NCBI GenBank assembly: GCA_013540605.1
Contig: JABVCK010000004.1
Coordinates: forward strand, 62,001-126,000
Length of the DNA: 64,000 nucleotides
Direction of reading: 5' to 3'
DNA from: Bacillota bacterium
GTDB lineage: Bacteria; Bacillota; Clostridia; Ch29
The notes under the pieces are model-generated. The model was given only the letters and a program-made list of their open reading frames with translations, made no database searches and was not told the DNA's origin. Positions within the stretch are counted from its first letter, which is position 1. Each line of letters begins with the position of its first letter. Shown here piece by piece: positions 2,170 through 48,705 of this stretch. Both the position numbers and the translations under genes were made by a program.

Positions 2170-4030
2170 CATCAAGCAGGTCCAAAATTTCAAAGGCAAT
2201 CTGGATTTTCAGCCTGTCCGAATAATCATCCAGGTCTAACCCCAGGATTTCCTTAATGCGGTTCAACCGGTAATTCAGGGTGTTCCCGTGTATATGGAGT
2301 TTATCCCGTGTCAATGACCAGTTTCCGTTGCTCCGGATATAGTACTTGAGAGTGTTAAGGAATTCTTCCCGCGAACTGTTTTCATAATTTATAAGGCGGC
2401 CCAGAGTTTCATACGCAAATTCCTTTAACTCTGCAGGATTATTGCTGAACAGGAATTTTTTTATTTCCAGTTCGTCAAAGAATAATACCGGTCTCTTCTT
2501 TTGAAGTTTCCCCAGAATTCTCAATGCTTTCATCGCATCATCGTAGGATGATTTCAGTCTGAACAAATCAGAGAACTGCCTTCCCACACCCGTATATATT
2601 TCAAAATCGCTGTAGTATGCCGACATCTCAAAGACAACCGCTTCAACCATATGTGTTATGGCGTCTTTTATCGATTTGTTATTCCCATCCTCAGGCATTT
2701 CAAGTATAGAAATCATGCAACCGCCCTTGTTTATGGTAATTGAACCGGGAAAAAGTTTAAGCACGATCCTTGATATTATAAAGAATATGTTCTTCCTTCT
2801 GACGAAATTATGCCTGGTCAGGACCTCTCCCCTATCAATGTCGCTTCCCCTTTCGTACAGTTCCATTACCGCGATGCAGTAGTTTTTGGAAAAATCGTAC
2901 CCATAGTTTTCAGCGCACCTTTTAACGTAATCTCTATCCTGGTCTGCAAGAAGATTATCCAGAAAATCGCCCTTCAACCTCTGCTCAATCTCCTGAATCT
3001 CGTTCTGTTTGAGGAATTCAAGGGCAAGTATTGTCCTACCCCTTTCAACAGTGATTTTATCCATTTCCTTATAGGGCAGCCTTTCTCCGACAACCCCGAT
3101 CCAACCCAGTATATCCTCGCTTACCACTATCGGATTCATCACCATGGATAACCCGGTGTTCTCATCCCTGTATTCCCAGGGTGCAGTATCCATAATCCTG
3201 TCACTAAAAGAATCCCGGTTTATCAAATAGTCTCCGGCATGATCATCGTCACTGAAGCTGTGGGCTTTTATATTCAGAAAAGCATCATAAACTATTATCG
3301 ATTTTCCCATCAGTAAAGATATTTCCCCGGCAATATCCTGTAGCGTACATCCCTTAAGGACCATATTGGTCAGCCTGTTATGGATTATTGTGGAATGTCT
3401 GTACCGGCTGTGCTGTTCTTTAATTATCCTGTTGTACTGCTCCATCTTTTTCATCATTTTCATATCTTTCTCATAGTTGATCGCGTTCATAATGGCAATA
3501 GTAGCCTGGTTTGAAATTGCCTGCAGCAGCTCCAGATCCTCACCGGTGAACAGGTAATCCTTTTTAAAATTATCCACAACTATGACCCCTATACATTCAT
3601 CCCTGTATATTAAAGGACAGCATATCGAGCTCTTCAGCTTTGCCGGTATTCTGCCCAGCACCCTGTCGCTTAACTCCTGGCTCTCCCTGGTCAATGTCGA
3701 CTGCGCTTTTTGTATTTCCGCCGCAGTCTGGAAGAGCATCGGCGTTTTTCGGGCGAATGTAATGCCTGTCATTGATTCTCCGGGCCTAAGCCTTACATTC
3801 TCAATCTCCCGGTCAAATCCTGTATATGACCTGACTTCCAGCAAGTTGGTGGTGCTGTTGAGCAGGAACAAAATTGCGGCATCTCCTGCATCCAGGAGCC
3901 GCAAGGTTTCTTCTATCAGAGTTTTAAGAATGAAATCCGTTTCCAGGGTGGAATTAAGCATCTTTGTTGTGCTCAGAAGCGCTTCCAGTCGTTTTGCCTT
4001 TCTTTCCATTGCCTCAATATCAGCTGGCAT
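2162..4030 (-). CDS. GAF-domain PucR/CdaR-type transcriptional regulator
   Basis: 622-aa regulator. Residues about 15-190 form a GAF sensor domain (ending GVIVVDNFKKDYLFTGEDLE...AIMNAINYEK). The middle resembles the PucR/CdaR regulatory region, and the last ~60 residues are the PucR C-terminal helix-turn-helix (GNWSLTRDKLHIHGNTLNYR), a family that often regulates purine, amino acid or sugar-acid use. Start ATG at 4030 is preceded by GGGGG. It is divergent from the transporter/M20 hydrolase operon starting at 4291, so that operon is its most likely target (inference). It converges on the DUF192 gene with an 8-bp overlap. Confidence 0.85.
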   Translation of the reverse strand: MPADIEAMERKAKRLEALLSTTKMLNSTLETDFILKTLIEETLRLLDAGDAAILFLLNSTTNLLEVRSYTGFDREIENVRLRPGESMTGITFARKTPMLFQTAAEIQKAQSTLTRESQELSDRVLGRIPAKLKSSICCPLIYRDECIGVIVVDNFKKDYLFTGEDLELLQAISNQATIAIMNAINYEKDMKMMKKMEQYNRIIKEQHSRYRHSTIIHNRLTNMVLKGCTLQDIAGEISLLMGKSIIVYDAFLNIKAHSFSDDDHAGDYLINRDSFSDRIMDTAPWEYRDENTGLSMVMNPIVVSEDILGWIGVVGERLPYKEMDKITVERGRTILALEFLKQNEIQEIEQRLKGDFLDNLLADQDRDYVKRCAENYGYDFSKNYCIAVMELYERGSDIDRGEVLTRHNFVRRKNIFFIISRIVLKLFPGSITINKGGCMISILEMPEDGNNKSIKDAITHMVEAVVFEMSAYYSDFEIYTGVGRQFSDLFRLKSSYDDAMKALRILGKLQKKRPVLFFDELEIKKFLFSNNPAELKEFAYETLGRLINYENSSREEFLNTLKYYIRSNGNWSLTRDKLHIHGNTLNYRLNRIKEILGLDLDDYSDRLKIQIAFEILDLLDAI

Positions 4031-4290: not shown

Positions 4291-5510
4291 ATGAGTGTAA
4301 TAGTTGCTTTTGTTGTAGTCGCAGGTATCATGGCAATAGGTGATGTAGTGTCAGCCAAAACCAAAGCATTCATTCCGTCAGTTTTTGTGGCGGCCACCCT
4401 GTTCATGATTGGCTTCTGGACATTTATACCGGCCAATGTCATCGACATACCCGGTTTGGGAATGCCCCTTGCCCTCATGTCCATGTACCTGCTGTTGGTC
4501 CACATGGGAACACTGATGAGCGTGAGGGAGCTGGCCTCCCAGTGGAAAACCATAGTCATTGCCCTGAGCGGTATCGCGGGCATGTGCGCGCTTCTCCTGA
4601 CGGTTGGCCGCCTGATAGTGGGTAAAGAGGCAATCATTGCCGCTACCCCTCCGCTAACCGGTGGAATTGTGGCAGCCATTATGATGTCCGATGCCGCAAC
4701 CGCAAAGGGGCTTACAAGCATGGCGGTTCTTGCAATAGTAATGTACGTTATGCAGGGCTTTGCCGGGTATCCGCTGACAGCCCTCGCCCTCAAGAAGGAA
4801 GGCAACAGGCTTCTCGACATCTACAGAAACAATAAGGAAGGTTTGGATGAATCGAGTTCCCAGCAGACTGCTGCCGCTTCCGAATCAGGAAAGAGCAAGT
4901 TTCAGTTTATACCGCCGCTGCCGGATAAATACCAGACCGTGTTCGTGCTGATTACCAAGCTGGCCCTTGTCGCCTGGGCTTCAGTGGCCTTCGCGGGTCT
5001 TATAAACGAATTTGTTTCAAAGTATGTAATATGCCTGATCTTCGGTGTAATCGCAGCGGAGATAGGTTTCCTGGAAAGGAAGCCCCTTGTTAAATCCGGC
5101 TCCTTCGGCTGGCTGATGCTCTCGCTGATGGCCTATATATTTGCGCAGCTTGCCAAGGCCACCCCCGGGATGCTTGCGGAAATCGCCGGACCCCTGGTTA
5201 TAATAATAGTACTTGGAGTTGCCGGTATGGCCGTTGTCTGCATGCTGGTCGGTAAGGCGCTGGGCTATTCGAAGGAGATGGCCTTTGCCCTGTCATTGAC
5301 GGCATTGTACGGCTTCCCTCCAAACTATATACTTACCGAGGAAGCGGCAAACGCACTGGCAGAAACTCCGGAGGAAAAGGAATTTCTGATGGACCAAATG
5401 CTGCCTAAAATGCTGGTAGGCGGTTTCACAACGGTTACCGTTGTATCGGTCATACTCGCCGGCATATTTGTAAAAATGTTGTAGATGCAAGTACCCCCCT
5501 AGACCTTTGA
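4243..5510. repeat. Inverted G-run motifs flanking the transporter gene
   Basis: Positions 4243-4260 and the reverse complement of 5493-5510 match at 15 of 18 bases and share CTAGGGGGGT exactly. One copy lies just before the ribosome site of the transporter gene and the other just after its stop. The transcribed pair could base-pair around the whole gene, or the copies could be protein sites; the function is unknown. Confidence 0.45.
4291..5484 (+). CDS. Polytopic membrane transporter, possibly of the GltS-like carboxylate/amino acid type
   Basis: 397-aa integral membrane protein with about ten hydrophobic segments and a short hydrophilic loop near residues 175-205 (KKEGNRLLDIYRNNKEGLDE). 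Repeated halves with Gly/Pro-rich stretches (PPLTGGIVAAIMMSDAATAKG and ALSLTALYGFPPNYIL) resemble ion-coupled carboxylate symporters such as the sodium/glutamate type, but I cannot assign the family with certainty. Strong ribosome site AAAGGAGG. It is followed 58 bp later by two M20 hydrolases in the same direction, suggesting uptake of an N-carbamoyl or N-acyl amino acid, or of a ureide, for hydrolysis (inference). Confidence 0.7.
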   Translation: MSVIVAFVVVAGIMAIGDVVSAKTKAFIPSVFVAATLFMIGFWTFIPANVIDIPGLGMPLALMSMYLLLVHMGTLMSVRELASQWKTIVIALSGIAGMCALLLTVGRLIVGKEAIIAATPPLTGGIVAAIMMSDAATAKGLTSMAVLAIVMYVMQGFAGYPLTALALKKEGNRLLDIYRNNKEGLDESSSQQTAAASESGKSKFQFIPPLPDKYQTVFVLITKLALVAWASVAFAGLINEFVSKYVICLIFGVIAAEIGFLERKPLVKSGSFGWLMLSLMAYIFAQLAKATPGMLAEIAGPLVIIIVLGVAGMAVVCMLVGKALGYSKEMAFALSLTALYGFPPNYILTEEAANALAETPEEKEFLMDQMLPKMLVGGFTTVTVVSVILAGIFVKML

Positions 5511-5542
5511 CTATAGTGTAAGATTATTACTGGAGGGATTTT

Positions 5543-6787
5543 ATGAAAACCCGGTTAGACAGGATTAAGAAGGATATCGAAAAACTGGCTGAATATAATG
5601 CAACACCCGGTCAGGGCCTTACCCGGTTCTCCTTCTCGGAGGAAGACAGGAGGGCACGGGAATATATAAAGGAGCAGATGATCCTGGCAGGGCTTGAAGT
5701 ATACGAGGACGCCGCAGGAACCGTAGTTGGCCGGAGAAACGGCAGGGATAACAACCTCCCTTCCGTCATGGTGGGTTCCCACTTCGACTCGGTAAGAAAC
5801 GGGGGAAACTTTGACGGTCCGGCAGGGGTGGTCACTGCGCTGGAGATTGCCAGGCTGCTCCATGAGAATAATATTGAGACGGAACACCCCATAGAGTTCG
5901 TCGCTTTGGTTGAAGAGGAAGGCGGCAGGTTCGGCGCCGGGCTGTTCGGCAGCAGGGCTATGGTTGGAAGGGTTTCCGAGCAGGAGCTTAATTCAAACAG
6001 GGATGAAAACGGCATTACCACCGGTGAGGCAATGCTGAAATTCGGCCTGGATCCCTGCACTATCCAAAAGGCTAAGAGGCCCCCCGGATCTTTAAAAGCA
6101 TTTTTCGAGCTTCACATAGAACAGGGACCCGTACTGGAAGCCGAGCGGAAGGATATAGGAATCGTAAACACAATAGTCGGCATCAGGCACTATGAGGTAG
6201 AAATAACCGGCAGACCGGACCATGCAGGAACAACTCCCATGAACATGAGGGCCGATGCGCTGGTTCTGAGCTCTAAGGTGGTCATGGCAGTAAACAAGCT
6301 GGCAAAGGAAGCCGGCGAAGGAACGGTTGCCACCGTCGGCAGCCTCAGGGTAAGCCCGGGAGCGACGAATATTGTGCCCGGCAAGGTAGTATTTACAATA
6401 GATATCAGATCAAGAAACGAAGAAAACATTGAAACTATCATAGATGGAGTAAAAACTCTCCTGACAGAAGGATGCAAAGAAGAAGGGCTTTCCCATAGTG
6501 TAAACTGCAAAATTGCAGTGAGCCCGGTCCATGTGCCCGGCTATATAATAGATATCTTGAAGAAGAAATGCAGAGAACTCGGCCTTTCCTATAAGGAGAT
6601 GATAAGCGGTGCCGGTCATGATGCGATGGTTATGGCCGAAATCACCGATGCATGCCTCGTATTTGTTCCGAGCAGGGGCGGCCGAAGCCACTGCCCCGAG
6701 GAATGGACCGACTATGAACAGCTTCAGAAAGGCGTACAATTGATATTCAAAACCATATTGGATGTTGCGGGGGTGGCTAAACAATGA
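5543..6787 (+). CDS. M20 family N-carbamoyl-amino acid hydrolase / allantoate amidohydrolase-like
   Basis: Zn-dependent amidohydrolase of the hydantoinase/carbamoylase type, 414 aa, the usual length. Metal-site motifs are visible: GSHFDSVRNGGNFDGPAG, EEEGGRFGAGLFGS, and HIEQGPVLE, followed by the dimerisation domain with GRPDHAGTTPM. A late SGAGHDAMVMA block supplies another ligand. Enzymes of this group remove a carbamoyl group from N-carbamoyl amino acids, or act on allantoate or ureidoglycolate; the exact substrate cannot be read from sequence. The stop overlaps the next gene start by 4 bp (ATGA), showing translational coupling with the second M20 enzyme. Confidence 0.87.
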   Translation: MKTRLDRIKKDIEKLAEYNATPGQGLTRFSFSEEDRRAREYIKEQMILAGLEVYEDAAGTVVGRRNGRDNNLPSVMVGSHFDSVRNGGNFDGPAGVVTALEIARLLHENNIETEHPIEFVALVEEEGGRFGAGLFGSRAMVGRVSEQELNSNRDENGITTGEAMLKFGLDPCTIQKAKRPPGSLKAFFELHIEQGPVLEAERKDIGIVNTIVGIRHYEVEITGRPDHAGTTPMNMRADALVLSSKVVMAVNKLAKEAGEGTVATVGSLRVSPGATNIVPGKVVFTIDIRSRNEENIETIIDGVKTLLTEGCKEEGLSHSVNCKIAVSPVHVPGYIIDILKKKCRELGLSYKEMISGAGHDAMVMAEITDACLVFVPSRGGRSHCPEEWTDYEQLQKGVQLIFKTILDVAGVAKQ

Positions 6788-39226: not shown

Positions 39227-39724
39227 TTACAGGCGTATCATTGTGACCACATCTTCAAAGTATTCTTGGGGGTATTCCGCCCAAACAATCGCAGTCCTGT
39301 TATTCTTGGCGGATACGTCTACTTTTATTACCTTACCCTTGCATAGGGTATTCCCGTACCGGTCAGCCAGTTCAACCTCCCTCCCCTCTTCAGGCAGGGG
39401 AAGATACTCATATGGGAATTTTATCAATGACATCCCTTCCCTATAATCATAGGTCTTAACGTATATAGCAAGACCCGGGCACGCCGCCACGCACAGCGCG
39501 CAACCGGTGCACTTATCCTCATCCAATTGAGGCAGGTTTGTTATTGGCCTGCCAACCTTAATAGCCCCCCGCAAGCAGGCGGTTTCACACGGATTGCACG
39601 GTATTTCCTCTATGCATTCAATAAACGCTATACTTCTCTTTCTAGCCCTTTCAATACCAGGATATCCGGGGGTGCCTCGCAGCTCATCAATGGAAGGCGC
39701 CCCATCTATTTTAAGCCCTTTCAC
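39227..39724 (-). CDS. Two-cluster ferredoxin-like 4Fe-4S protein
   Basis: 165 aa. Cys motifs: ECIEEIPCNPCETACLRGAI and DEDKCTGCALCVAACPGLAI, consistent with two Fe-S clusters, followed by a small beta domain (PLPEEGREVELADRYGNTLC). Such proteins accompany HcnB-like FAD subunits in anaerobes. GTG start overlaps the stop of the FAD subunit gene by 4 bp, so the two are coupled. Confidence 0.82.
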   Translation of the reverse strand: MKGLKIDGAPSIDELRGTPGYPGIERARKRSIAFIECIEEIPCNPCETACLRGAIKVGRPITNLPQLDEDKCTGCALCVAACPGLAIYVKTYDYREGMSLIKFPYEYLPLPEEGREVELADRYGNTLCKGKVIKVDVSAKNNRTAIVWAEYPQEYFEDVVTMIRL

Positions 39725-40815
39725 TGTTCGTCCCCTCCTGCCATTACTTGCTGTTTTGCTATCTTTCTATTTTCACCAAAGGGTCCGCACCGCAAGGCAT
39801 CCAGTCTCTCCCATATTTCCCCTGCTATCTTTTCCAATCTCTCGGTATCGATTAGCCCTATGGCAGCTGCAGCGCTTACGCCGGCCAACCTGCCTTCTTC
39901 CATTGCAGTGCTTGCTTCTTCAATTCCCGTAATATCTCCGGCTATATATATACCCTTTTTACTTGTAGCCATATACCGGTCATGCCATGGTACATGTCCT
40001 CCAAGCACCCGGTTGAATACAAATTTACAACCTGCTATCCATGCAAGCTCCGCCAAAGGGGTAAGCCCTGTTGCCAGGCAGATGGTGTCTACGTTGATAG
40101 CAATCTCGCTTCCGTCAACCGGCTTAAATCTTTCATCCACCCGGGCTATTATTGCCCTTTCAACCTTTCCATCACCTTCTGCCCTGACAATGGTATGTGA
40201 AACATAGAATGGGACTCCCGCTCTCCTCACCTTTGCAGTATGCACTCCGTAAGCCCCAAGTCTTGGAGCTGCTTCCACTATTGCAGCGACTTCCGCACCC
40301 GCCTGCAGCAGCTGGTACGATACAATAACTCCGACATTTCCGGAACCCACCATCAATACCTTCCTGCCCGGAAGCACACGGTTGACATTTATCATTGTCT
40401 GGGCTGCGCCTGCACCCATTACGCCGGGCAGCGTCCAACCCTCAAAGCTGATTGAGTTCTCTACTGCCCCGGTACATAAAATTACAGCAGCTCCCTTAAC
40501 CTGGAAGCTTTTCCTTTCATCCTTAACCACCCATAAAACGTTATCATCATAAATACCGCATACCTTGGAGTTTAACCAAACATCCATTCCAAGTTCCTTT
40601 GTTTCCTTCAATAGCTGCAATCCTATTTCTAACCCTCTAACCCCTGCTTTGTGCTCAGCAGAGCCGAAAAATTTATGAATCTGCTTGAATAACTGTCCTC
40701 CGGGTCTTGAGTTCTCATCGATCAGAAGCACCCTCGCGCCGTTTTTTGCAGCTTCAATTGCGGCACACAGACCGGCGGGACCGCCGCCTACAACCACAAT
40801 ATCCCATACCCTCAT
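39721..40815 (-). CDS. HcnB/OoxA-like NAD(P)/FAD-dependent oxidoreductase subunit
   Basis: 364 aa. N-terminal FAD motif DIVVVGGGPAGLCAAIEAAK, second nucleotide motif VLMVGSGNVGVIVSYQLLQA, and GIYIAGDITGIEEASTAMEE near the end. It lacks the C-terminal BFD-type Fe-S domain of HcnB/OoxA, which is encoded separately at 42091-42357. ATG at 40815 overlaps the upstream 2Fe-2S gene by 4 bp. By analogy with opine, D-hydroxyproline and HCN-forming oxidases it passes electrons from the DAO-like subunit. Confidence 0.87.
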   Translation of the reverse strand: MRVWDIVVVGGGPAGLCAAIEAAKNGARVLLIDENSRPGGQLFKQIHKFFGSAEHKAGVRGLEIGLQLLKETKELGMDVWLNSKVCGIYDDNVLWVVKDERKSFQVKGAAVILCTGAVENSISFEGWTLPGVMGAGAAQTMINVNRVLPGRKVLMVGSGNVGVIVSYQLLQAGAEVAAIVEAAPRLGAYGVHTAKVRRAGVPFYVSHTIVRAEGDGKVERAIIARVDERFKPVDGSEIAINVDTICLATGLTPLAELAWIAGCKFVFNRVLGGHVPWHDRYMATSKKGIYIAGDITGIEEASTAMEEGRLAGVSAAAAIGLIDTERLEKIAGEIWERLDALRCGPFGENRKIAKQQVMAGGDEQ

Positions 40816-41144
40816 TCGTCTCCAGCACCTTCCTTCCATTTACCGCAGCCGTGTTGTGTCTCTACTCTCATCCCTTCTTCAACCGGCGTCACACAGGTAC
40901 GGACATTGGGCATTCCATTCACCGTCATTACACAATCGGTACATCGGCCTATTCCACAAAAAATACCTCTAGGGGCATGATGCTTTTTTGTATACCTAAA
41001 TGTTTTTATCCCGGCTGCCAGTAATGCAGATGCTATCATTTCGCCCTCAATAGCCTCTAATTCCTGCCCATCCACATAGATCTTAACCTTTCGGTCATAT
41101 TCAATGTCTCCAAGTATCGGGTGCTTTGTTATCCTCATGTTCAT
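40812..41144 (-). CDS. HcnA-like 2Fe-2S ferredoxin subunit
   Basis: 110 aa, plant-type ferredoxin fold: VDGQELEAIEGEMIASALLA and the Cys set CGIGRCTDCVMTVNGMPNVR followed by C. It is the small Fe-S subunit of HcnABC/opine oxidase-type complexes. Overlaps the FAD subunit gene by 4 bp. ATG at 41144, GAGGAG about 10 bp upstream. Confidence 0.87.
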   Translation of the reverse strand: MNMRITKHPILGDIEYDRKVKIYVDGQELEAIEGEMIASALLAAGIKTFRYTKKHHAPRGIFCGIGRCTDCVMTVNGMPNVRTCVTPVEEGMRVETQHGCGKWKEGAGDE

Positions 41145-41159
41145 ACGTCAACAACTCCT

Positions 41160-42035
41160 CTATAACAGCCCTAGTTTAACCATTTCTTCAACCAGAATTT
41201 TCTCAACATATGCACCGGCATCCACCATAGGAAGCCTTAACCCTCCTGCATTTCTCCCCATGAGGTTCAGTGCCTTTTTCACGGGTATAGGGTTTGTGGT
41301 AATAAACAGCGCATCGAATATCGGTTTAAGTTTGTTATGCAGCTGTGCCGCGTTTTTTACGTCTCCCTCCAGGAAACTGTCAATCATCCGCCTCATCATC
41401 GGACCAACCACCTGTGATGCTACGCTGACCACTCCCGCGCCCCCCATGGCCATAATCGGTATTGTGAGGAAGTCATCCCCGCTGTAGACATTAAATCCTT
41501 CCTTTGCCCTCCTGATAACCTCACAGACCTGGCTGAGGTTACCGCTTGCCTCCTTCAATGCAACTATGTTTTCAATCCTTGACAGCTCTATCACTGTCTC
41601 TGCATCCATATTACCACCCGTTCTGCCGGGGACATTGTACATCATTATCGGAAGTTTTACTTCCTCGGCCACCGCCTTGAAATGCCTGTAAATACCCTCC
41701 TGGTTAGGTTTATTGTAATAGGGCACAACCACAAGAACACCATCAACGCCACACTCCACTGCCATCCTTCCCATCTCAATGGTGGCCTTTGTGGAATTTG
41801 TACCTATTCCGGCGATCACCGGCACATCGACCGAGGCTTTTATTTCTTTAAACAGCTTAATTTTTTCATCGGTTGTCAGGGTCGGAGCCTCCCCGGTTGT
41901 ACCGCAGACCGTCAAAGCCGTAGTTCCCTCTTCAACCAGTTGTTTTGCCAGTTCAACAGCCCCACCGTAGTTTACATTTAACTCCTCATCAAAAGGCGTA
42001 ACCATCGCTGTGATAAGACTACCCCATCGTTGCAT
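41160..42035 (-). CDS. dapA: Dihydrodipicolinate synthase family protein, second DapA
   Basis: 291 aa, standard length. All DapA residues I can check are present: GTTGEAP (Thr-Thr), PYYNKP (Tyr), YNVPGRTG (Arg that binds the semialdehyde carboxylate) and KEASGN (Schiff-base Lys). It could therefore truly make hydroxy-tetrahydrodipicolinate; homologues in amino acid operons can also be deaminases or aldolases, for example in hydroxyproline breakdown. The second of two ATGs (42035) is best placed after GGGAGG. It sits inside an oxidoreductase operon, not with lysine genes. Confidence 0.85.
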   Translation of the reverse strand: MQRWGSLITAMVTPFDEELNVNYGGAVELAKQLVEEGTTALTVCGTTGEAPTLTTDEKIKLFKEIKASVDVPVIAGIGTNSTKATIEMGRMAVECGVDGVLVVVPYYNKPNQEGIYRHFKAVAEEVKLPIMMYNVPGRTGGNMDAETVIELSRIENIVALKEASGNLSQVCEVIRRAKEGFNVYSGDDFLTIPIMAMGGAGVVSVASQVVGPMMRRMIDSFLEGDVKNAAQLHNKLKPIFDALFITTNPIPVKKALNLMGRNAGGLRLPMVDAGAYVEKILVEEMVKLGLL

Positions 42036-42090
42036 TGCCATAACCTCCCTTTAATGTCATCCTACTGATAAAATAAGAAAGCCATAAGGA

Positions 42091-42357
42091 CTAATTGTCA
42101 TCTTCTTCGAAGTTGCTTATTGGTACAGGTCTCACCGGTGACCGGTATGTCGATGGCTGAATCTTCTCCATCTCAATTCCCGTTTCATCAGCGAAAACCT
42201 TTTCTACCAGTTTTCTGCAAGTTCTTCCCTGACACAATCCCATGCCGGCTCTTGTCTTTCTCTTTATTTCATTAACCGTTGTACAACCGCTCAAAATAGC
42301 TTCTCTTATTTCCTCCTCCGTTACCTCTTCGCATCTGCAGATTATTATATTATTCAA
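42091..42357 (-). CDS. BFD-type 2Fe-2S protein
   Basis: About 88 aa. The BFD motif is clear: IICRCEEVTEEEIREAILSG, then GMGLCQGRTCRKLVEK, four Cys for a 2Fe-2S cluster. It corresponds to the C-terminal domain of HcnB/OoxA as a separate subunit. The open frame runs to 42423, but those first residues are encoded by a 39-bp palindrome; a TTG at 42357 behind AGGGGG (12 bp) is my choice. The start is uncertain. Confidence 0.78.
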   Translation of the reverse strand: MNNIIICRCEEVTEEEIREAILSGCTTVNEIKRKTRAGMGLCQGRTCRKLVEKVFADETGIEMEKIQPSTYRSPVRPVPISNFEEDDN

Positions 42358-42390
42358 TTTTTCCGATAACCCCCTATTTGCCGTTAAACA

Positions 42391-42429
42391 GGTATTTTGG
42401 GGATTCTTTAAAAGAATCCCCAAAATACC
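42391..42429. repeat. 39-bp palindrome between symporter and BFD genes
   Basis: Arms of 19 bp (GGTATTTTGGGGATTCTTT and its complement) around one base. It lies 11 bp after the symporter stop and before the BFD gene, with no T tract. It may be an RNA-stability or partial-termination hairpin inside the operon. Confidence 0.8.
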
Positions 42430-42439
42430 ACCAGTCTAT

Positions 42440-43885
42440 CTAGACTGTCTTAACAGTGTCTTTATTCATCTTTTCCCTTGTCATACTGGAAACAACTACG
42501 ATTAGCAGAGCAGAAACCACAAGGGCGATAAGCACTCTGTTGGGACCCAGGGCGGTAACCTGGCTCAGTACCGCCCCGGATACAATGCCTATCCTGGCTC
42601 CCCAGGGGGTAACCTTGCTGTTTTTCTTGCCCATCTGGAAACCTTCCGCTGGATTCTCCTTCCAGATCAAACCTACAAGCAGAAGGGGTACAAGACCTCC
42701 GCCCGCCATCGCGTATGCCCTTGAGAACAGGCCGAGAATGCTGCTGGCATAGATAGCTGCCAGAGCAGCAAAAATACCGATAACTACGGTTAAGTACTTT
42801 GCGTATTTGACGAGCTGTTCATCTGAAAGCTGCGGGTTGAAGGGTTTGATAAGGTCATTTACAACGAGGATTGATGCGGAGTTCAGGTTTGAGTCCGCCG
42901 ATGACATGCCGGCAGCAAGAACAAGAGCAAAAATCATGGCGGAAACCCCCACAGGTACATAGTTCATCATAAACCAGGGCATTGCGTCATCTGGCTTCAG
43001 TCCCTGGTTCATTGTGAGGACTACCATACCCACAAAGGCAGTCAGCATAACCATGATTATCGCTGCAATCCCGCTCCACAAAAGGCCATTTCGAGCTGTT
43101 TTGGCATCCTTTGCAGCGAAACACCTCTGCCAGTAAATCTGTGCCGCAAGGATACCTACACAGCCGGTTACAAAGTTAGTAATGAGAGTTATCGGAGGTA
43201 CCCCCGAAAAGGTCCATAGTTCACCTTTGCCTACATCGGCAAGCCTTGTCCCCAGCTCTGCAAAGCTCCAGTGTACCGGCGAAAATGCATATATATAAAA
43301 CGCGACTCCAAATATCACAACCATTACACCCTGCAGCAGGTCGGTCCATACGACCGAATATATGCCGCCCAGAGTTGTATACAAAATGAAAACGCCGGAA
43401 AACAGCAGTATAATCGGCAGCTCATTGGCACCGGTTACTATCTTGAATATGTTGCCAAACGCTTTTCCCTGTCCTCCTACCCAGGCTATCATAATCATTG
43501 AGGCCAGCAAACCTCCCAGTGCCCGGGTTACCTTGTCGTTTACCATCAAATCGTCTATCATCTCGGTAAAGGTGTTATAGGTGAACTTTCCTGCTAGCCC
43601 CGCAAAGAATAGGGCAAATATAATCTTCGACCCCTGCTCGCCCAGTATGAATGCCATCCAGGGCAAACCTACCGAATACCCTTTCCCTGCATGACCTATG
43701 AAGTTGCCCACACCCATGATCGTGGCAAACTGAGTAAATAGTACCAGATAAATCGGAAAAGTACCGCTACCTATGGCATAGTTCGAGAAACTTAATGCAG
43801 CACTGTCCTTTACTCTCCATGAAATATACAAGAATGCGCCACACATAACCAGAGTAATGACCCACAATAAGGTTCCTAAACCCAT
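42440..43885 (-). CDS. Sodium:solute symporter (SSS) family transporter
   Basis: 481 aa with about 13 hydrophobic segments. SSS features: GFNY-like N-terminal region (SNYAIGSGTFPIYLVLFTQF), GGIYSVVWTDLLQGVMVVIF, and AAGMSSADSNLNSASILVVN (sodium-site region). Relatives carry proline, pantothenate or other amino/carboxylic acids. It lies in the DAO/HcnABC-like operon, so it probably imports the substrate of that oxidase (inference). Confidence 0.88.
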   Translation of the reverse strand: MGLGTLLWVITLVMCGAFLYISWRVKDSAALSFSNYAIGSGTFPIYLVLFTQFATIMGVGNFIGHAGKGYSVGLPWMAFILGEQGSKIIFALFFAGLAGKFTYNTFTEMIDDLMVNDKVTRALGGLLASMIMIAWVGGQGKAFGNIFKIVTGANELPIILLFSGVFILYTTLGGIYSVVWTDLLQGVMVVIFGVAFYIYAFSPVHWSFAELGTRLADVGKGELWTFSGVPPITLITNFVTGCVGILAAQIYWQRCFAAKDAKTARNGLLWSGIAAIIMVMLTAFVGMVVLTMNQGLKPDDAMPWFMMNYVPVGVSAMIFALVLAAGMSSADSNLNSASILVVNDLIKPFNPQLSDEQLVKYAKYLTVVIGIFAALAAIYASSILGLFSRAYAMAGGGLVPLLLVGLIWKENPAEGFQMGKKNSKVTPWGARIGIVSGAVLSQVTALGPNRVLIALVVSALLIVVVSSMTREKMNKDTVKTV

Positions 43886-43939
43886 TCTTTAGCCCCCTTT
43901 AATAATATTTTTGGCGTGAAAGTGATTGACATTAATTTG

Positions 43940-45130
43940 CTATGCCACACCTCCCTCCTTCCTTTGGAACCTGTCAAAGTTCAGCTCCTCGATATCCAAA
44001 CTGTTTGTCCTGCCGAGTACCAGGTTATTTATGATCTTCCCTGTAACCGGTGCAAGGGCAATCCCATCACCCTCATGACCGGCTGCTATAAAAAACCCGG
44101 GCAACGTCGCTACTTCACCGATTATTGGCTTTCCGTCCTGGCATGCCGGTCTTAGCCCTGCAAAGCTTCTAATAATACTGACATTGTTCATAACAGGAAA
44201 GAACCTTGCCGCCTGGGATACCATTATCTGTAATGCCTCAAAGGTAGTATTCTTATTGTATCCCACATATTCCCTTGTACTTCCGATAAAGCAGTTGCCA
44301 TCTGCGGTACGGGTAAATGAAAACCCCACACCAAGGTCCTCCAGCACCTTCTCCCTCTTCTTTGCTTTTCCCGGGTTAAGCTTGGATACTATATAGTCAG
44401 CGCTCCAGACATTGGTCTCGCCAAGGGGTGGAACCTGCTCGGTAACGGCTATTTGTCCTCTCTTTGGCTTTATCGGTATTTCTATACCTACCATCTTCCC
44501 TATAAATGGCGCCCATGGACCCGCTGCATTTATCACCGTCTCCGCCACGTACCTTTCGCCATTTGCAGTTCCGATTGTCCAGTCACCGGAACCGTTCCTA
44601 TCTATAGAAACAACCTCAGCATTCTTCTTAATCTGCATGCCCAGTTCCTTCCCCCTGTTGGCAAAAGCAAACATAACCCTTAGGGGATTCACCTGCGCAT
44701 CAATAGCGCTGTATGTTGACGCGATTACCCCCTCACTTACATGGGGCTGCTTTTTTTTCACCTGCTTCTTTCCTACTATTTCCACTTCCAGACCGCACTT
44801 CTTCTGCTCAATAACGAAATCCTCCATAATGCGCAAATCATCCTCGGTTTCTATTAAAATCATTGCACCGGGACTCATAAACTCCAGGTCCGTACCCAGC
44901 TCATCCGATAGACCCCTGTACATATCTATACTTTCCAGGGCCATCTCCAGAACTATTCCGGGTTTTTTTGATTGGAGCAGTATTGCGTCGTCACAGGAGC
45001 CGGAGGCACCATTACCTATATCTTTCTTCTCCAAAACCAACACCTTCTTCCCAGATTTGCTCAAATAATATCCGGATGAAAGGCCGATTATGCCCGAACC
45101 TATTATTATAACATCGTACCCCCTACCCAT
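43940..45130 (-). CDS. DAO-family FAD-dependent amino acid/imino acid oxidoreductase (HcnC/OoxB-like)
   Basis: 396 aa. FAD motif DVIIIGSGIIGLSSGYYLSK, LEKKDIGNGASGSCDD, and C-terminal SFAGLRPACQDGKPIIGEV with GHEGDGIALAPVTG. This is the catalytic subunit type of opine oxidase, D-hydroxyproline/proline dehydrogenase and HCN synthase: oxidation of a secondary or alpha-amine. ATG at 45130 follows AAGGAGG; the frame is open to 45214. First gene of the eight-gene operon, with its own promoter and candidate FCD operator. Confidence 0.87.
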   Translation of the reverse strand: MGRGYDVIIIGSGIIGLSSGYYLSKSGKKVLVLEKKDIGNGASGSCDDAILLQSKKPGIVLEMALESIDMYRGLSDELGTDLEFMSPGAMILIETEDDLRIMEDFVIEQKKCGLEVEIVGKKQVKKKQPHVSEGVIASTYSAIDAQVNPLRVMFAFANRGKELGMQIKKNAEVVSIDRNGSGDWTIGTANGERYVAETVINAAGPWAPFIGKMVGIEIPIKPKRGQIAVTEQVPPLGETNVWSADYIVSKLNPGKAKKREKVLEDLGVGFSFTRTADGNCFIGSTREYVGYNKNTTFEALQIMVSQAARFFPVMNNVSIIRSFAGLRPACQDGKPIIGEVATLPGFFIAAGHEGDGIALAPVTGKIINNLVLGRTNSLDIEELNFDRFQRKEGGVA

Positions 45131-45240
45131 GAGTTTTCCTCCTTTTAAGGAATGTCTCCAATTAAACGATTTGTATAGGGCTAGATTTGTGGATTTAAAA
45201 TGGTCGTTTATCAAGGCCGGAATGTTTTGAGATAATGCTG

Positions 45241-45345: not shown

Positions 45346-45372
45346 AAAAAAAAGCAGCGTGGCTGCTGCTCC
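45346..45372 (-). terminator. Terminator after the cysteine desulfidase-like gene
   Basis: Minus-strand AGCAG-CCACG-CTGCT followed by nine T residues; the stop codon is at 45377. Confidence 0.85.
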
Positions 45373-45376
45373 CCAT

Positions 45377-46696
45377 CTAACATCCTGCACAATCCCTTTT
45401 GTTCGTATGGCTGTTTTCCACCATAACCTCCAGTATCGCTTTGTCCGTTTCGGTCATCCCCGGATAGCTAACCTTACCAAGGTTCTGAATGGTTTTTTCC
45501 ACACTGCAGTGTATAATACCGTTATCACAGGGTACCACCACTCCATCCATAGCAAGGAGGGCGGACTGAAATGCCGCGGAGGCAGCTGTGGAAAGTTTCA
45601 GTGCACAGCCCGCCTTCCCACCGTCGCATATCATTCCCGTTACATTTGCAATCATATTCTTTATCGTACCCTCTATCTGTCTGTTTGTTGCTCCCATCAG
45701 CAAGGCTATACCTGTGCTTGCCCCTATCGCCGCGGCCACAGCGCACCCGCATAATGCGGAAAGCTTTCCGGTATAGTTTTTAATATAAATTGTCACGAGA
45801 TGGCTGAGGGCAAGGCCTCTGGCTAAGTCCCCATCATTCTTTCCGTACTTCTCAGCTACTGCAACAACGGGAAGAATTGCGGTCAAACCGTGATTTCCGC
45901 TTCCCGCGCTGCTCATAACAGGCATTTTCACCCCGGCCATCCGTACATCGGCTCCTGCAGCGGTCAGGGCAGAAACGTAGTAGCCTGTATCATCCGAAAC
46001 CATTCCCTTTTTAATCATACTGTACAAATTATAGCCGACTCCCATTCCTATTCTCTCCTGCAGCCCCTTCCTGGCAACCGCAAGGTTCATATCCCTTCCG
46101 TTCAGCATAAAAGCAATATCCTCATCCGGTATCTCCCTGACCAGGTTGATTATATCTGATATTCGCTTACCCTGAAGCCATGTCCTTGGATCGTCCTTGG
46201 CCTTTTCTCCGGTTTTCTCCCCGGCAGAAAGTCCTATAGACTTGCCGTTGCTCTCAACCAGTACTATATTAGTATGGGATTCCTCAATAATGCATCTTCC
46301 GTTTCCTGCATCCGCTGCCACCCGGCAGTCAATGTACACCCCTGACCTGTCCAACACTTCCACTTCCACCGCTTCACTGTCAACAAGCTCCATTGCCCGG
46401 CTGGCAGCTTTACCGTCAATGTTCTCCAGCACTTCAAGCCCCTTTGCGGGGTCACCGCCCACAGCCCCCAAGGCCGCTGCTATATCAATTCCAACCCTGT
46501 CTATTCCCGGTATTCCAACGGCCATGCCGTTCTTATAAATGCCACTGCTCACTATAACCTTAATGTGCTTCACCCCATCGCCCGCAGCCTTTGCAGCGTT
46601 CGATGCGGCGAGGGCTACGGCAACGGGTTCGGTACACCCCAAGGCAGGAACAACTTCCTTCTTGAGTATTTGAATTATGTTTTTATACTCATCCAT
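45377..46696 (-). CDS. L-cysteine desulfidase-like protein (UPF0597/CyuA family)
   Basis: 439 aa. Related to the alpha chain of Fe-S serine dehydratase. Conserved Cys occur in VPALGCTEPVAVALAAS, SALCGCAVAAAIGAS and MICDGGKAGCALK, consistent with a 4Fe-4S cluster. The family converts L-cysteine to pyruvate, ammonia and sulfide. ATG at 46696 behind GGGGGTG; the frame is open to 46726. It is preceded by a sigma-54 promoter and activator sites next to a sigma-54 activator gene, the same design as megL. A GGGGAC-type repeat lies in its leader. Confidence 0.83.
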   Translation of the reverse strand: MDEYKNIIQILKKEVVPALGCTEPVAVALAASNAAKAAGDGVKHIKVIVSSGIYKNGMAVGIPGIDRVGIDIAAALGAVGGDPAKGLEVLENIDGKAASRAMELVDSEAVEVEVLDRSGVYIDCRVAADAGNGRCIIEESHTNIVLVESNGKSIGLSAGEKTGEKAKDDPRTWLQGKRISDIINLVREIPDEDIAFMLNGRDMNLAVARKGLQERIGMGVGYNLYSMIKKGMVSDDTGYYVSALTAAGADVRMAGVKMPVMSSAGSGNHGLTAILPVVAVAEKYGKNDGDLARGLALSHLVTIYIKNYTGKLSALCGCAVAAAIGASTGIALLMGATNRQIEGTIKNMIANVTGMICDGGKAGCALKLSTAASAAFQSALLAMDGVVVPCDNGIIHCSVEKTIQNLGKVSYPGMTETDKAILEVMVENSHTNKRDCAGC

Positions 46697-46710: not shown

Positions 46711-46786
46711 TAATGTAAGGGGACACTTTCTATCAGTGGCCAGTGGCTAGTACCTGCGAACTGTGATCTGTGATCTAGTCCCCGAT
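46711..46786. repeat. GGGGAC-type and degenerate word repeats in the desulfidase leader
   Basis: ATAATGTAAGGGGACAC (46712-46728) is also found at 8309-8325 in front of the tandem arrays. It is followed by CAGTGGCCAGTGGCTAG and CTGTGATCTGTGATC words and closes with AGTCCCC, giving a GGGGAC...GTCCCC stem. It occupies the leader between the sigma-54 promoter and the ribosome site. More of the same word repeats continue to about 46875. Confidence 0.6.
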
Positions 46787-46796
46787 TAGAATAGCA

Positions 46797-46812
46797 CGCA
46801 AGTTCCATGCCA
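46797..46812 (-). promoter_or_regulatory. Sigma-54 (-24/-12) promoter of the desulfidase-like gene
   Basis: Minus strand TGGCATGGAACTTGCG, GG-N10-GC spacing exact. It shares TGGCATGG with the megL promoter. Confidence 0.85.
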
Positions 46813-46884
46813 TGTCTTACAAGTTACCAAAGGTCTAACCCAGACACCTGTGATCTAACATCTGTGATCTGCATTCCATCTCCC

Positions 46885-46940
46885 GTATCAAACTGATACT
46901 CGCCGGCGTATCATTTTGATATTCAGTATCAATATGATAC
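46885..46940. promoter_or_regulatory. Three palindromic activator boxes GTATCA-N3-TGATAC
   Basis: 46885-46899 (GTATCA-AAC-TGATAC), 46908-46922 (GTATCA-TTT-TGATAT) and 46926-46940 (GTATCA-ATA-TGATAC). They lie between the activator's stop (46945) and the sigma-54 promoter, about 100-155 bp upstream of the predicted start site. Confidence 0.85.
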
Positions 46941-46944
46941 TTTC

Positions 46945-48705
46945 CTATCCCAACCCGTATTTTTTTATCTTTCTGAACAGCGTAGCCCTGCCTATGCCCA
47001 GGGCTTGAGCCGCTTTTTCTTTACTCTCGTAAGTCCTTATGGCCTTATCAATCATTTCCCGTTCCATGTCTTCAAGGGCGCTTATCCCATTTGATTTGCC
47101 GTCACTGTGTTTAACTGTCCCATCCCTCATCCTCAGCGGCAGGCTTGATAATGTTATAAGCTTTCCCTGTTCCATATTTACAGCGTATTCGATTGCATTC
47201 TCCAGCTCCCTTACATTTCCTTTCCAGTTGTATTTCAGGAACAAACCCAATACCTCATCGCTGAAGCCCTCGATTGCCTTTCCGAGCTTGCTGTTGCATT
47301 TATCAAGCAGATAATCCATTAATATGGGTATATCTTCCTTCCTTTCCGCCAGCGAAGGTATATGCATGGGAATCACATTTAGCCTGAAGAACAGATCTTC
47401 CCTGAACTCACCAAGGCTTACCCGGTTTTCCAGGTCAGAGTTCGTCGCTGCTATTATCCGGACATCAATGGGTATGGGTATCTTTCCCCCTACCCTGTCT
47501 ATCTTCCTCTCCTGGAGCACCCTGAGCAGCTTGACCTGCAAGTGCAGGGGCATATCTCCTATTTCATCCAGGAACACAGTTCCTCCGTCTGCCAGTTCAA
47601 ACTTCCCGGACCGGCCTCCCCTTACCGCCCCTGTGAAGGCCCCCTCTTCGTAACCGAACAATTCGCTTTCAAGGAGCTGTTCAGGAATGGCGGCACAGTT
47701 GATTGCAACAAATGGTTTGTTCTTTCTCGGACTTGCCGAATGTATCGCCCTGGCAAACAGTTCTTTCCCCGTACCGCTCTCCCCGTGTATCAATACGGTG
47801 GATGACGATTTCGCCGCCTTCATTGCCCTGTCCTTTATTTCAATAATCGCAGGACTTTCGCCGATGATAGTGTCGAAGGAAGTACTGTACGTTGAGCCGA
47901 TTGTATCATTAATAACCTTGTGTATCTGGGAAATCTCCCTTATTGTGAATACGAGGCCTGAGAAATTCGCATCGTGGACTATGGGTTTTGCCGAAAAAAC
48001 CCCCCTTATGTAATAGCTGCTGTGCTGGTAGAGAAACTCTCTATTTTTTATATCGGAGGTGCGGGAATAATCCACACCGGATTCCCCGAACTCTCCAAAT
48101 ATCCGGCTGATTTTAACAGGATGCTTGTGTTTTCTTAGGTTGAAGAGGATGTTCGCCGCTTCATTATACCTGATTATTTCGCCTGTAGAATCGGTAGCTA
48201 TTATACCCTCATCGATGGAATTGATTATTATGTTCATCTGATTGGTCATGACTTCAAGGGTACTGGTCTTTTCCCTTTCCAGGACCTTAGCCGCAAGGAG
48301 GTCAGCCATTCTCTCCAGAAACTCCATAACGCTGGTCTTGTCGGTGAAAAGCCTGACCTTCTGTTCCTTGCTGAAAGCAATCAGCCCTATTATGCCTATG
48401 GCCTTGCCTGCTATGACAATCGGTGTTGAAATCTCTCCGTATTCAATACAGCCGCTCTTTATCCCGCAATCTTCACAAAGCGCTTCGGTCCTTGGATTTT
48501 CTACAAGGTAGCCTTTCCCTGTTTCCAGCACCTTCCGGAACACCGAGCTTCCGTCAACTGCTTGTCCTGCCAGGCTGCTGTACGCACCGGTACCGGCAAC
48601 TCTTATCAGGTTTTCGTCCACGATCGTCACGTCCACCCCAATTACACTGGCAATTGCATCTGCAATATTCTGTACGTCCTTTCCAACGCTCATGAGACCG
48701 CTCAT
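46945..48705 (-). CDS. Sigma-54-dependent activator with Cys-containing sensor and PAS domains
   Basis: 586 aa. Residues ~1-150: GAF-like sensor with Cys77, Cys80 and Cys86 (EALCEDCGIKSGCIEYGE), a possible thiol, metal or cysteine sensor. PAS ~155-270. AAA+ sigma-54 domain ~290-520 with GESGTGKE and GAFTGA. Fis-type HTH at the C-terminus (EKAAQALGIGRATLFRKIKK). ATG at 48705 with AAAGGAGG. It lies just upstream of the desulfidase-like gene; the palindromic boxes at 46885-46940 are its probable binding sites (inference). Confidence 0.88.
   Translation of the reverse strand: MSGLMSVGKDVQNIADAIASVIGVDVTIVDENLIRVAGTGAYSSLAGQAVDGSSVFRKVLETGKGYLVENPRTEALCEDCGIKSGCIEYGEISTPIVIAGKAIGIIGLIAFSKEQKVRLFTDKTSVMEFLERMADLLAAKVLEREKTSTLEVMTNQMNIIINSIDEGIIATDSTGEIIRYNEAANILFNLRKHKHPVKISRIFGEFGESGVDYSRTSDIKNREFLYQHSSYYIRGVFSAKPIVHDANFSGLVFTIREISQIHKVINDTIGSTYSTSFDTIIGESPAIIEIKDRAMKAAKSSSTVLIHGESGTGKELFARAIHSASPRKNKPFVAINCAAIPEQLLESELFGYEEGAFTGAVRGGRSGKFELADGGTVFLDEIGDMPLHLQVKLLRVLQERKIDRVGGKIPIPIDVRIIAATNSDLENRVSLGEFREDLFFRLNVIPMHIPSLAERKEDIPILMDYLLDKCNSKLGKAIEGFSDEVLGLFLKYNWKGNVRELENAIEYAVNMEQGKLITLSSLPLRMRDGTVKHSDGKSNGISALEDMEREMIDKAIRTYESKEKAAQALGIGRATLFRKIKKYGLG

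Follow-up and report, generated by a model that had tools for sequence, protein, structure and literature searches.

The intergenic region at positions 46,797 to 46,940 of a 64,000-nucleotide stretch of DNA from a Clostridia-class Bacillota bacterium (hereafter the window) raised the question of whether it holds a sigma-54-dependent switch for the gene that follows it, and whether the signal read by that switch can be recognized in its binding sites or in its activator. The locus is very likely a CdsR-cdsB unit, in which a one-component sigma-54 activator would use three boxes to bring about cysteine-induced transcription of the L-cysteine desulfidase gene cdsB. On the minus strand, the activator gene was followed by the three boxes, a consensus -24/-12 promoter, the L-cysteine desulfidase-family gene and a terminator-like hairpin (Table 1). 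Open reading frames, motif searches and shuffled controls confirmed the sigma-54 unit described in the original prediction, which had comprised these boxes, promoter, activator and enzyme gene.

Table 1. Features of the cdsB locus, in window coordinates.
Feature	Position	Strand	Detail
cdsR-like gene	46945..48705	(-)	ORF; 586 aa sigma-54 enhancer-binding activator
Sensor domain, aa 1-145, GAF fold (predicted)	48271..48705	(-)	AlphaFold model, pLDDT 94.5
Cys77, Cys80, Cys86 codons (C-x2-C-x5-C)	48448..48477	(-)	Sensor alignment
Box 1 GTATCATATTGATAC	46926..46940	(-)	Centre about -147
Box 2 ATATCAAAATGATAC	46908..46922	(-)	Centre about -129; one mismatch, at the outermost base
Box 3 GTATCAGTTTGATAC	46885..46899	(-)	Centre about -106
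Sigma-54 -24/-12 promoter TGGCATGGAACTTGC	46798..46812	(-)	Predicted start site near 46786
cdsB/cyuA, [4Fe-4S] L-cysteine desulfidase	45377..46696	(-)	SDH_alpha 1.7e-59; 439 aa from ATG 46696
Terminator-like hairpin with T run	45349..45374	(-)	Directly 3' of cdsB

The identity of the target enzyme as a cysteine desulfidase is well supported by sequence comparison. In addition to the SDH_alpha domain, its closest solved relatives were L-cysteine desulfidases (9fsl, 1.3e-41), the cysteines of the cluster region were kept (CGC and ICDGGKxGC), and its GCTE motif aligned with Cys23/Glu25 of Methanococcus maripaludis CyuA, a pair that is needed for desulfidase activity and is not conserved in SdaA/B serine dehydratases (PMC12647591). 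The ATG at 46696, with GGGGGT upstream, was preferred as start codon over a less good alternative, GTG at 46726. Hairpins of the type found near cdsB occurred at chance level by count in the region, and the argument for this one is its position. Farther downstream on the same strand (39227-45214), genes for a DAO-type oxidoreductase, a sodium symporter, a BFD-like 2Fe-2S protein, a DHDPS-family protein, 2Fe-2S and FAD subunits and a ferredoxin were observed, a cluster that resembles an operon for amino-acid oxidation (perhaps of proline or hydroxyproline) and not a sulfur-related one. Elsewhere in the genome (L086, G000:C1:12000-19500), a second, short SDH_alpha ORF of 226 aa (2417-3097), covering the C-terminal half of the family, was present upstream of an aminotransferase and of a related activator whose sensor is without the Cys triad.

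The protein encoded upstream of cdsB comprised a GAF-type sensor, a linker or PAS-like region, an AAA+ domain with the GAFTGA motif and a Fis-type helix-turn-helix, with Pfam matches to Sigma54_activat (1.6e-72), the AAA lid and HTH_8/HTH_50, and weaker ones to GAF_2 and SpoVT_C. The best PDB matches of the sensor model were SpoVT and GAF domains, and a GAF domain is predicted with confidence on this structural basis. The features that define a CdsR were found together at this locus, namely the AAA+ sigma-54 interaction domain with GAFTGA and the Fis-type helix-turn-helix, adjacency to cdsB, palindromic upstream sites with a -24/-12 promoter ahead of cdsB, and grouping with other cdsB-adjacent activators in the activator tree. 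Identity with PrdR, the proline reductase regulator, was rejected (NCBIfam NF041552, score of 433 bits, below the cut-off of 795). The genome contained rpoN (466 aa, on contig C9); a second Sigma54_DBD match was located in a 241-aa open frame (G000:C35:201077-201550).

The three boxes, which begin just past the stop codon of the activator gene, share the palindromic core TATCA-N3-TGATA; their centres were counted from the predicted start site. Two of them match GTATCA-N3-TGATAC exactly, the middle one departing from it by a single base. In the 3.35 Mb genome the exact sequence has no copies outside this locus. Within the genome, core boxes in tandem pairs occurred at the cdsB locus only; across the bacterial family they were confined to the window genome and one relative (G001), and the reversed-pattern controls gave none in either search. 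Within the 320 bp upstream of cdsB, three boxes were counted, whereas shuffled sequences averaged 0.08 and not one of 500 reached three. A loose search of the window for the 15-mer with up to two mismatches showed no enrichment by count (3 found vs. 2.15 expected), and loose-match counts within the window are uninformative. The strict promoter pattern TGGCAY-N5-TTGC had a single further site in the window, at megL. The three-box array and the sigma-54 unit at cdsB are a real switch, and to judge from the sequence the boxes are very probably bound by the adjoining activator, CdsR.

To assess conservation, relatives of the enzyme were gathered from named genome contigs and from 391 genomes belonging to the class. 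TMTCA-N3-TGAKA boxes and a TGG[C/T]-N8-TGC promoter were present at nine more CdsR-cdsB loci, which come from several families and have activators of the window's clade; this gives ten loci with the window, two of which are near-identical. The further loci had 2-4 boxes each with one mismatch allowed, a count matched in 0 or 1 of 500 shuffles at the loci so tested, and a -24/-12 element was located upstream of cdsB at every CdsR-adjacent locus examined. Boxes were thus present in all ten loci of the window's clade, as opposed to the absence from relatives with the same gene pair that would have spoken against the original prediction. Among 17 cdsB genes without an adjacent CdsR, on the other hand, none had boxes and 14 had no -24/-12 site; this set included genes of the same family with 69-70% identity. 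The genomes of that family in which boxes were absent had no sensor-type activator (G002, G004 and G005) or only a distant one (G003). In the activator tree, the proteins from the window, G001 (which carries the same box array) and Alkaliphilus transvaalensis grouped with support of 100/99, within a wider clade of 10 cdsB-adjacent rows (93/90; 93/91 after addition of G155). In A. transvaalensis, where about 1.2 kb with another gene parts CdsR from cdsB, the boxes are found at the cdsB promoter; their centres lie at -147/-130/-106, compared with -147/-129/-106 for the window. A role of the boxes as an autoregulation site of the activator gene is therefore not favoured, because in that genome they sit at cdsB, away from the activator end.

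Two departures from this arrangement were detected. The cdsB-adjacent activators L069-L071, which form a second clade, were associated with the same half-sites separated by a 4-base spacer (N4 vs. N3). In G155 (L129, contig C7, 2921-6349), an activator of the CdsR clade was followed by N3 boxes and a -24/-12 promoter that precede, instead of cdsB, the gene of a SufS-like class V PLP enzyme; this target swap is in keeping with cysteine handling as the common thread of the clade.

Dispersed repeats were also observed at the locus: copies of TAGATCACAGATCACAG and its variants, at 46761-46777 and about 46846-46877, flank the promoter between the boxes and cdsB. The 17-mer TAGATCACAGATCACAG was found at 89 places in the genome with at most one mismatch, the first of these two positions being one of them, and its reversed control at none. 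Since the intergenic region carries such GATCACAG repeat copies, the boxes might be regarded as chance or repeat-derived sequences, but the probability of this is negligible: they are not part of the dispersed repeat, they are kept in loci without it, and they are missing where CdsR is missing, so that a chance or repeat origin is refuted by conservation. A more substantial alternative is that the main protein bound to the boxes is a paralogous activator, or that both proteins bind there, with cdsB belonging to a wider amino-acid regulon. The same genome encodes a 592-aa paralog with a Cys sensor on contig C23 (L084, G000:C23:14000-21000, at about 4500-6533); its gene is followed by TATCA-N3-TGATA-type boxes and a -24/-12 promoter, and then by genes for a YfcC-like transporter and an amidohydrolase, with TTATCATTTTGATAA-type boxes and TTGGCATTCTTTTTGCT ahead of these neighbour genes. 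The core pentamers at C23 are those at cdsB, and related activators in other genomes have the same N3 core ahead of purine-type genes (YgfK, SsnA). Since the core is shared with activators of other pathways (L013, L019 and L084, the last in the window genome), CdsR may not be the only protein to bind the boxes, and crosstalk between CdsR and its relatives is possible. The outer base pair is nevertheless unlike (G/C at cdsB vs. T/A at C23) and may separate the two sets of targets; moreover, across genomes the boxes track CdsR together with cdsB, G001 included, and the C23 protein falls outside the CdsR clade of the tree. This alternative is accordingly considered unlikely. The same observations overturn the claim that the box sequence marks a cysteine switch: a cysteine-specific box was rejected because the N3 core also serves YgfK-, SsnA- and YfcC-type neighbours, the last beside the C23 paralog itself.

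The original prediction had also taken Cys77, Cys80 and Cys86, which are indeed present in the sensor, as a sign of cysteine sensing. No variation of the triad was seen among the 25 aligned sensors of the activator family, and it was present in all 29 sensor loci with a readable frame. It also occurs in activators located beside YgfK, SsnA, YfcC-like and diaminopropionate-lyase-like genes, and it therefore offers no basis for inferring cysteine sensing. Its role may be a shared one, of a structural, metal or redox kind; in VnfA and AnfA, which are GAF-type sigma-54 activators, iron-sulfur binding by cysteine motifs is known or presumed. This invariance lends some weight to a further alternative, in which the triad would read redox state, sulfide, a metal or an iron-sulfur cluster, instead of cysteine, and pass that signal on to cdsB. 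We regard this as a minority possibility, given that the occurrence of the triad beside unrelated targets makes a structural or general role likelier, that the inducer of C. difficile cdsB is cysteine (Gu 2018, PMC5767170), and that the cysteine motif of A. vinelandii lies just ahead of the GAF domain, unlike that of the window sensor. A broader and equally tentative proposal is that the C-x2-C-x5-C GAF sensor may be the common redox, metal, iron-sulfur or thiol input of a large clostridial family of sigma-54 activators that control the anaerobic breakdown of amino acids and purines. Its members would be distinguished by their targets and by minor variations on a shared box (TMTCA-N3/N4-TGAKA), and CdsR would form a branch where even the target enzyme is exchangeable, as in G155. 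In the window genome, TGTCA-N4-TGACA variant boxes and TGGCATATTATATGC were also observed past the stop codon (near 3534) of another Cys-sensor activator (L085, G000:C19), upstream of a diaminopropionate-lyase-like gene.

Taken as a CdsR-cdsB unit, the locus would operate as follows. The one-component activator would occupy the three TATCA-N3-TGATA boxes in dimeric or higher oligomeric form, and abundant cysteine, or a product of cysteine, would turn on its AAA+ ATPase. By DNA looping it would reach the sigma-54 RNA polymerase stationed some 100 bp downstream at the -24/-12 promoter, and transcription of cdsB as a single gene would follow. The encoded enzyme would cleave cysteine into pyruvate, ammonia and sulfide. 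What was directly observed comprises the identities of the genes, the boxes and the promoter, the conservation of these elements, their co-occurrence with the activator and the presence of rpoN, while we infer cysteine as the inducer, and the dependence on CdsR and SigL/sigma-54, by analogy with C. difficile.

In that organism, induction of cdsB by cysteine requires SigL and CdsR; the start site has been mapped, the promoter is of the -24/-12 type, and an upstream region containing two inverted repeats is needed as well (Gu 2018, PMC5767170). The promoter, ATGGCATGTATTTTGCTAT, is also contained in a start-site survey table (PMC7438776). The core of this published promoter matches that of the G300 locus, with different flanking bases. 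The C. difficile and window systems are alike in having the activator gene directly upstream of cdsB, a PAS/AAA+/Fis activator of similar length (591 vs. 586 aa), a -24/-12 promoter, upstream inverted repeats and a cysteine desulfidase as target. They differ in the arrangement of the sites, C. difficile having two inverted repeats, at -179..-190 and -200..-211, and the window three boxes at the positions given above, and in that cysteine induction was tested experimentally in C. difficile only, the window unit being known from its sequence. With respect to the enzyme, M. maripaludis CyuA (PMC12647591; PDB 9fsl) is homologous to the window protein over nearly its full length and both contain the Cys/Glu pair and the cluster-region cysteines; CyuA is archaeal, unlike the window enzyme, and the comparison covered the enzyme.

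At the level of regulons, Nie 2019 (PMC6615313) reports a reconstruction across Clostridiales of the sigma-54 regulons of CdsR (cdsB, cysteine) and MdeR (mdeA-metT, methionine) with their upstream sites, and defines two CdsR types, CdsR1 and CdsR2, to which the N3 and N4 clades may correspond. The CdsR regulons described there resemble the window in gene pair, multiple upstream sites and sigma-54 promoter; the parts consulted do not name genomes of the window's family, and the motifs are given as figure logos, which do not lend themselves to base-by-base comparison. The proposal of separate methionine and cysteine switches agrees with the window in that its methionine gamma-lyase (megL) unit has its own sigma-54 activator and promoter. 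Its novelty did not stand: the separate MdeR regulon is already paired there with cysteine catabolism, and with both regulons in print (Nie 2019) and CdsR-cdsB experimentally tested (Gu 2018) the pair of switches is not a new idea. The CdsR-cdsB unit of the window is a further example of the published system. It adds another family of anaerobic Bacillota to those with the switch, corrects an easy mistake, in that the sensor cysteines are a family trait and not a pointer to cysteine as the signal, and provides a base-level anatomy (box core, spacing, and N3/N4 variants) as a guide for binding tests.
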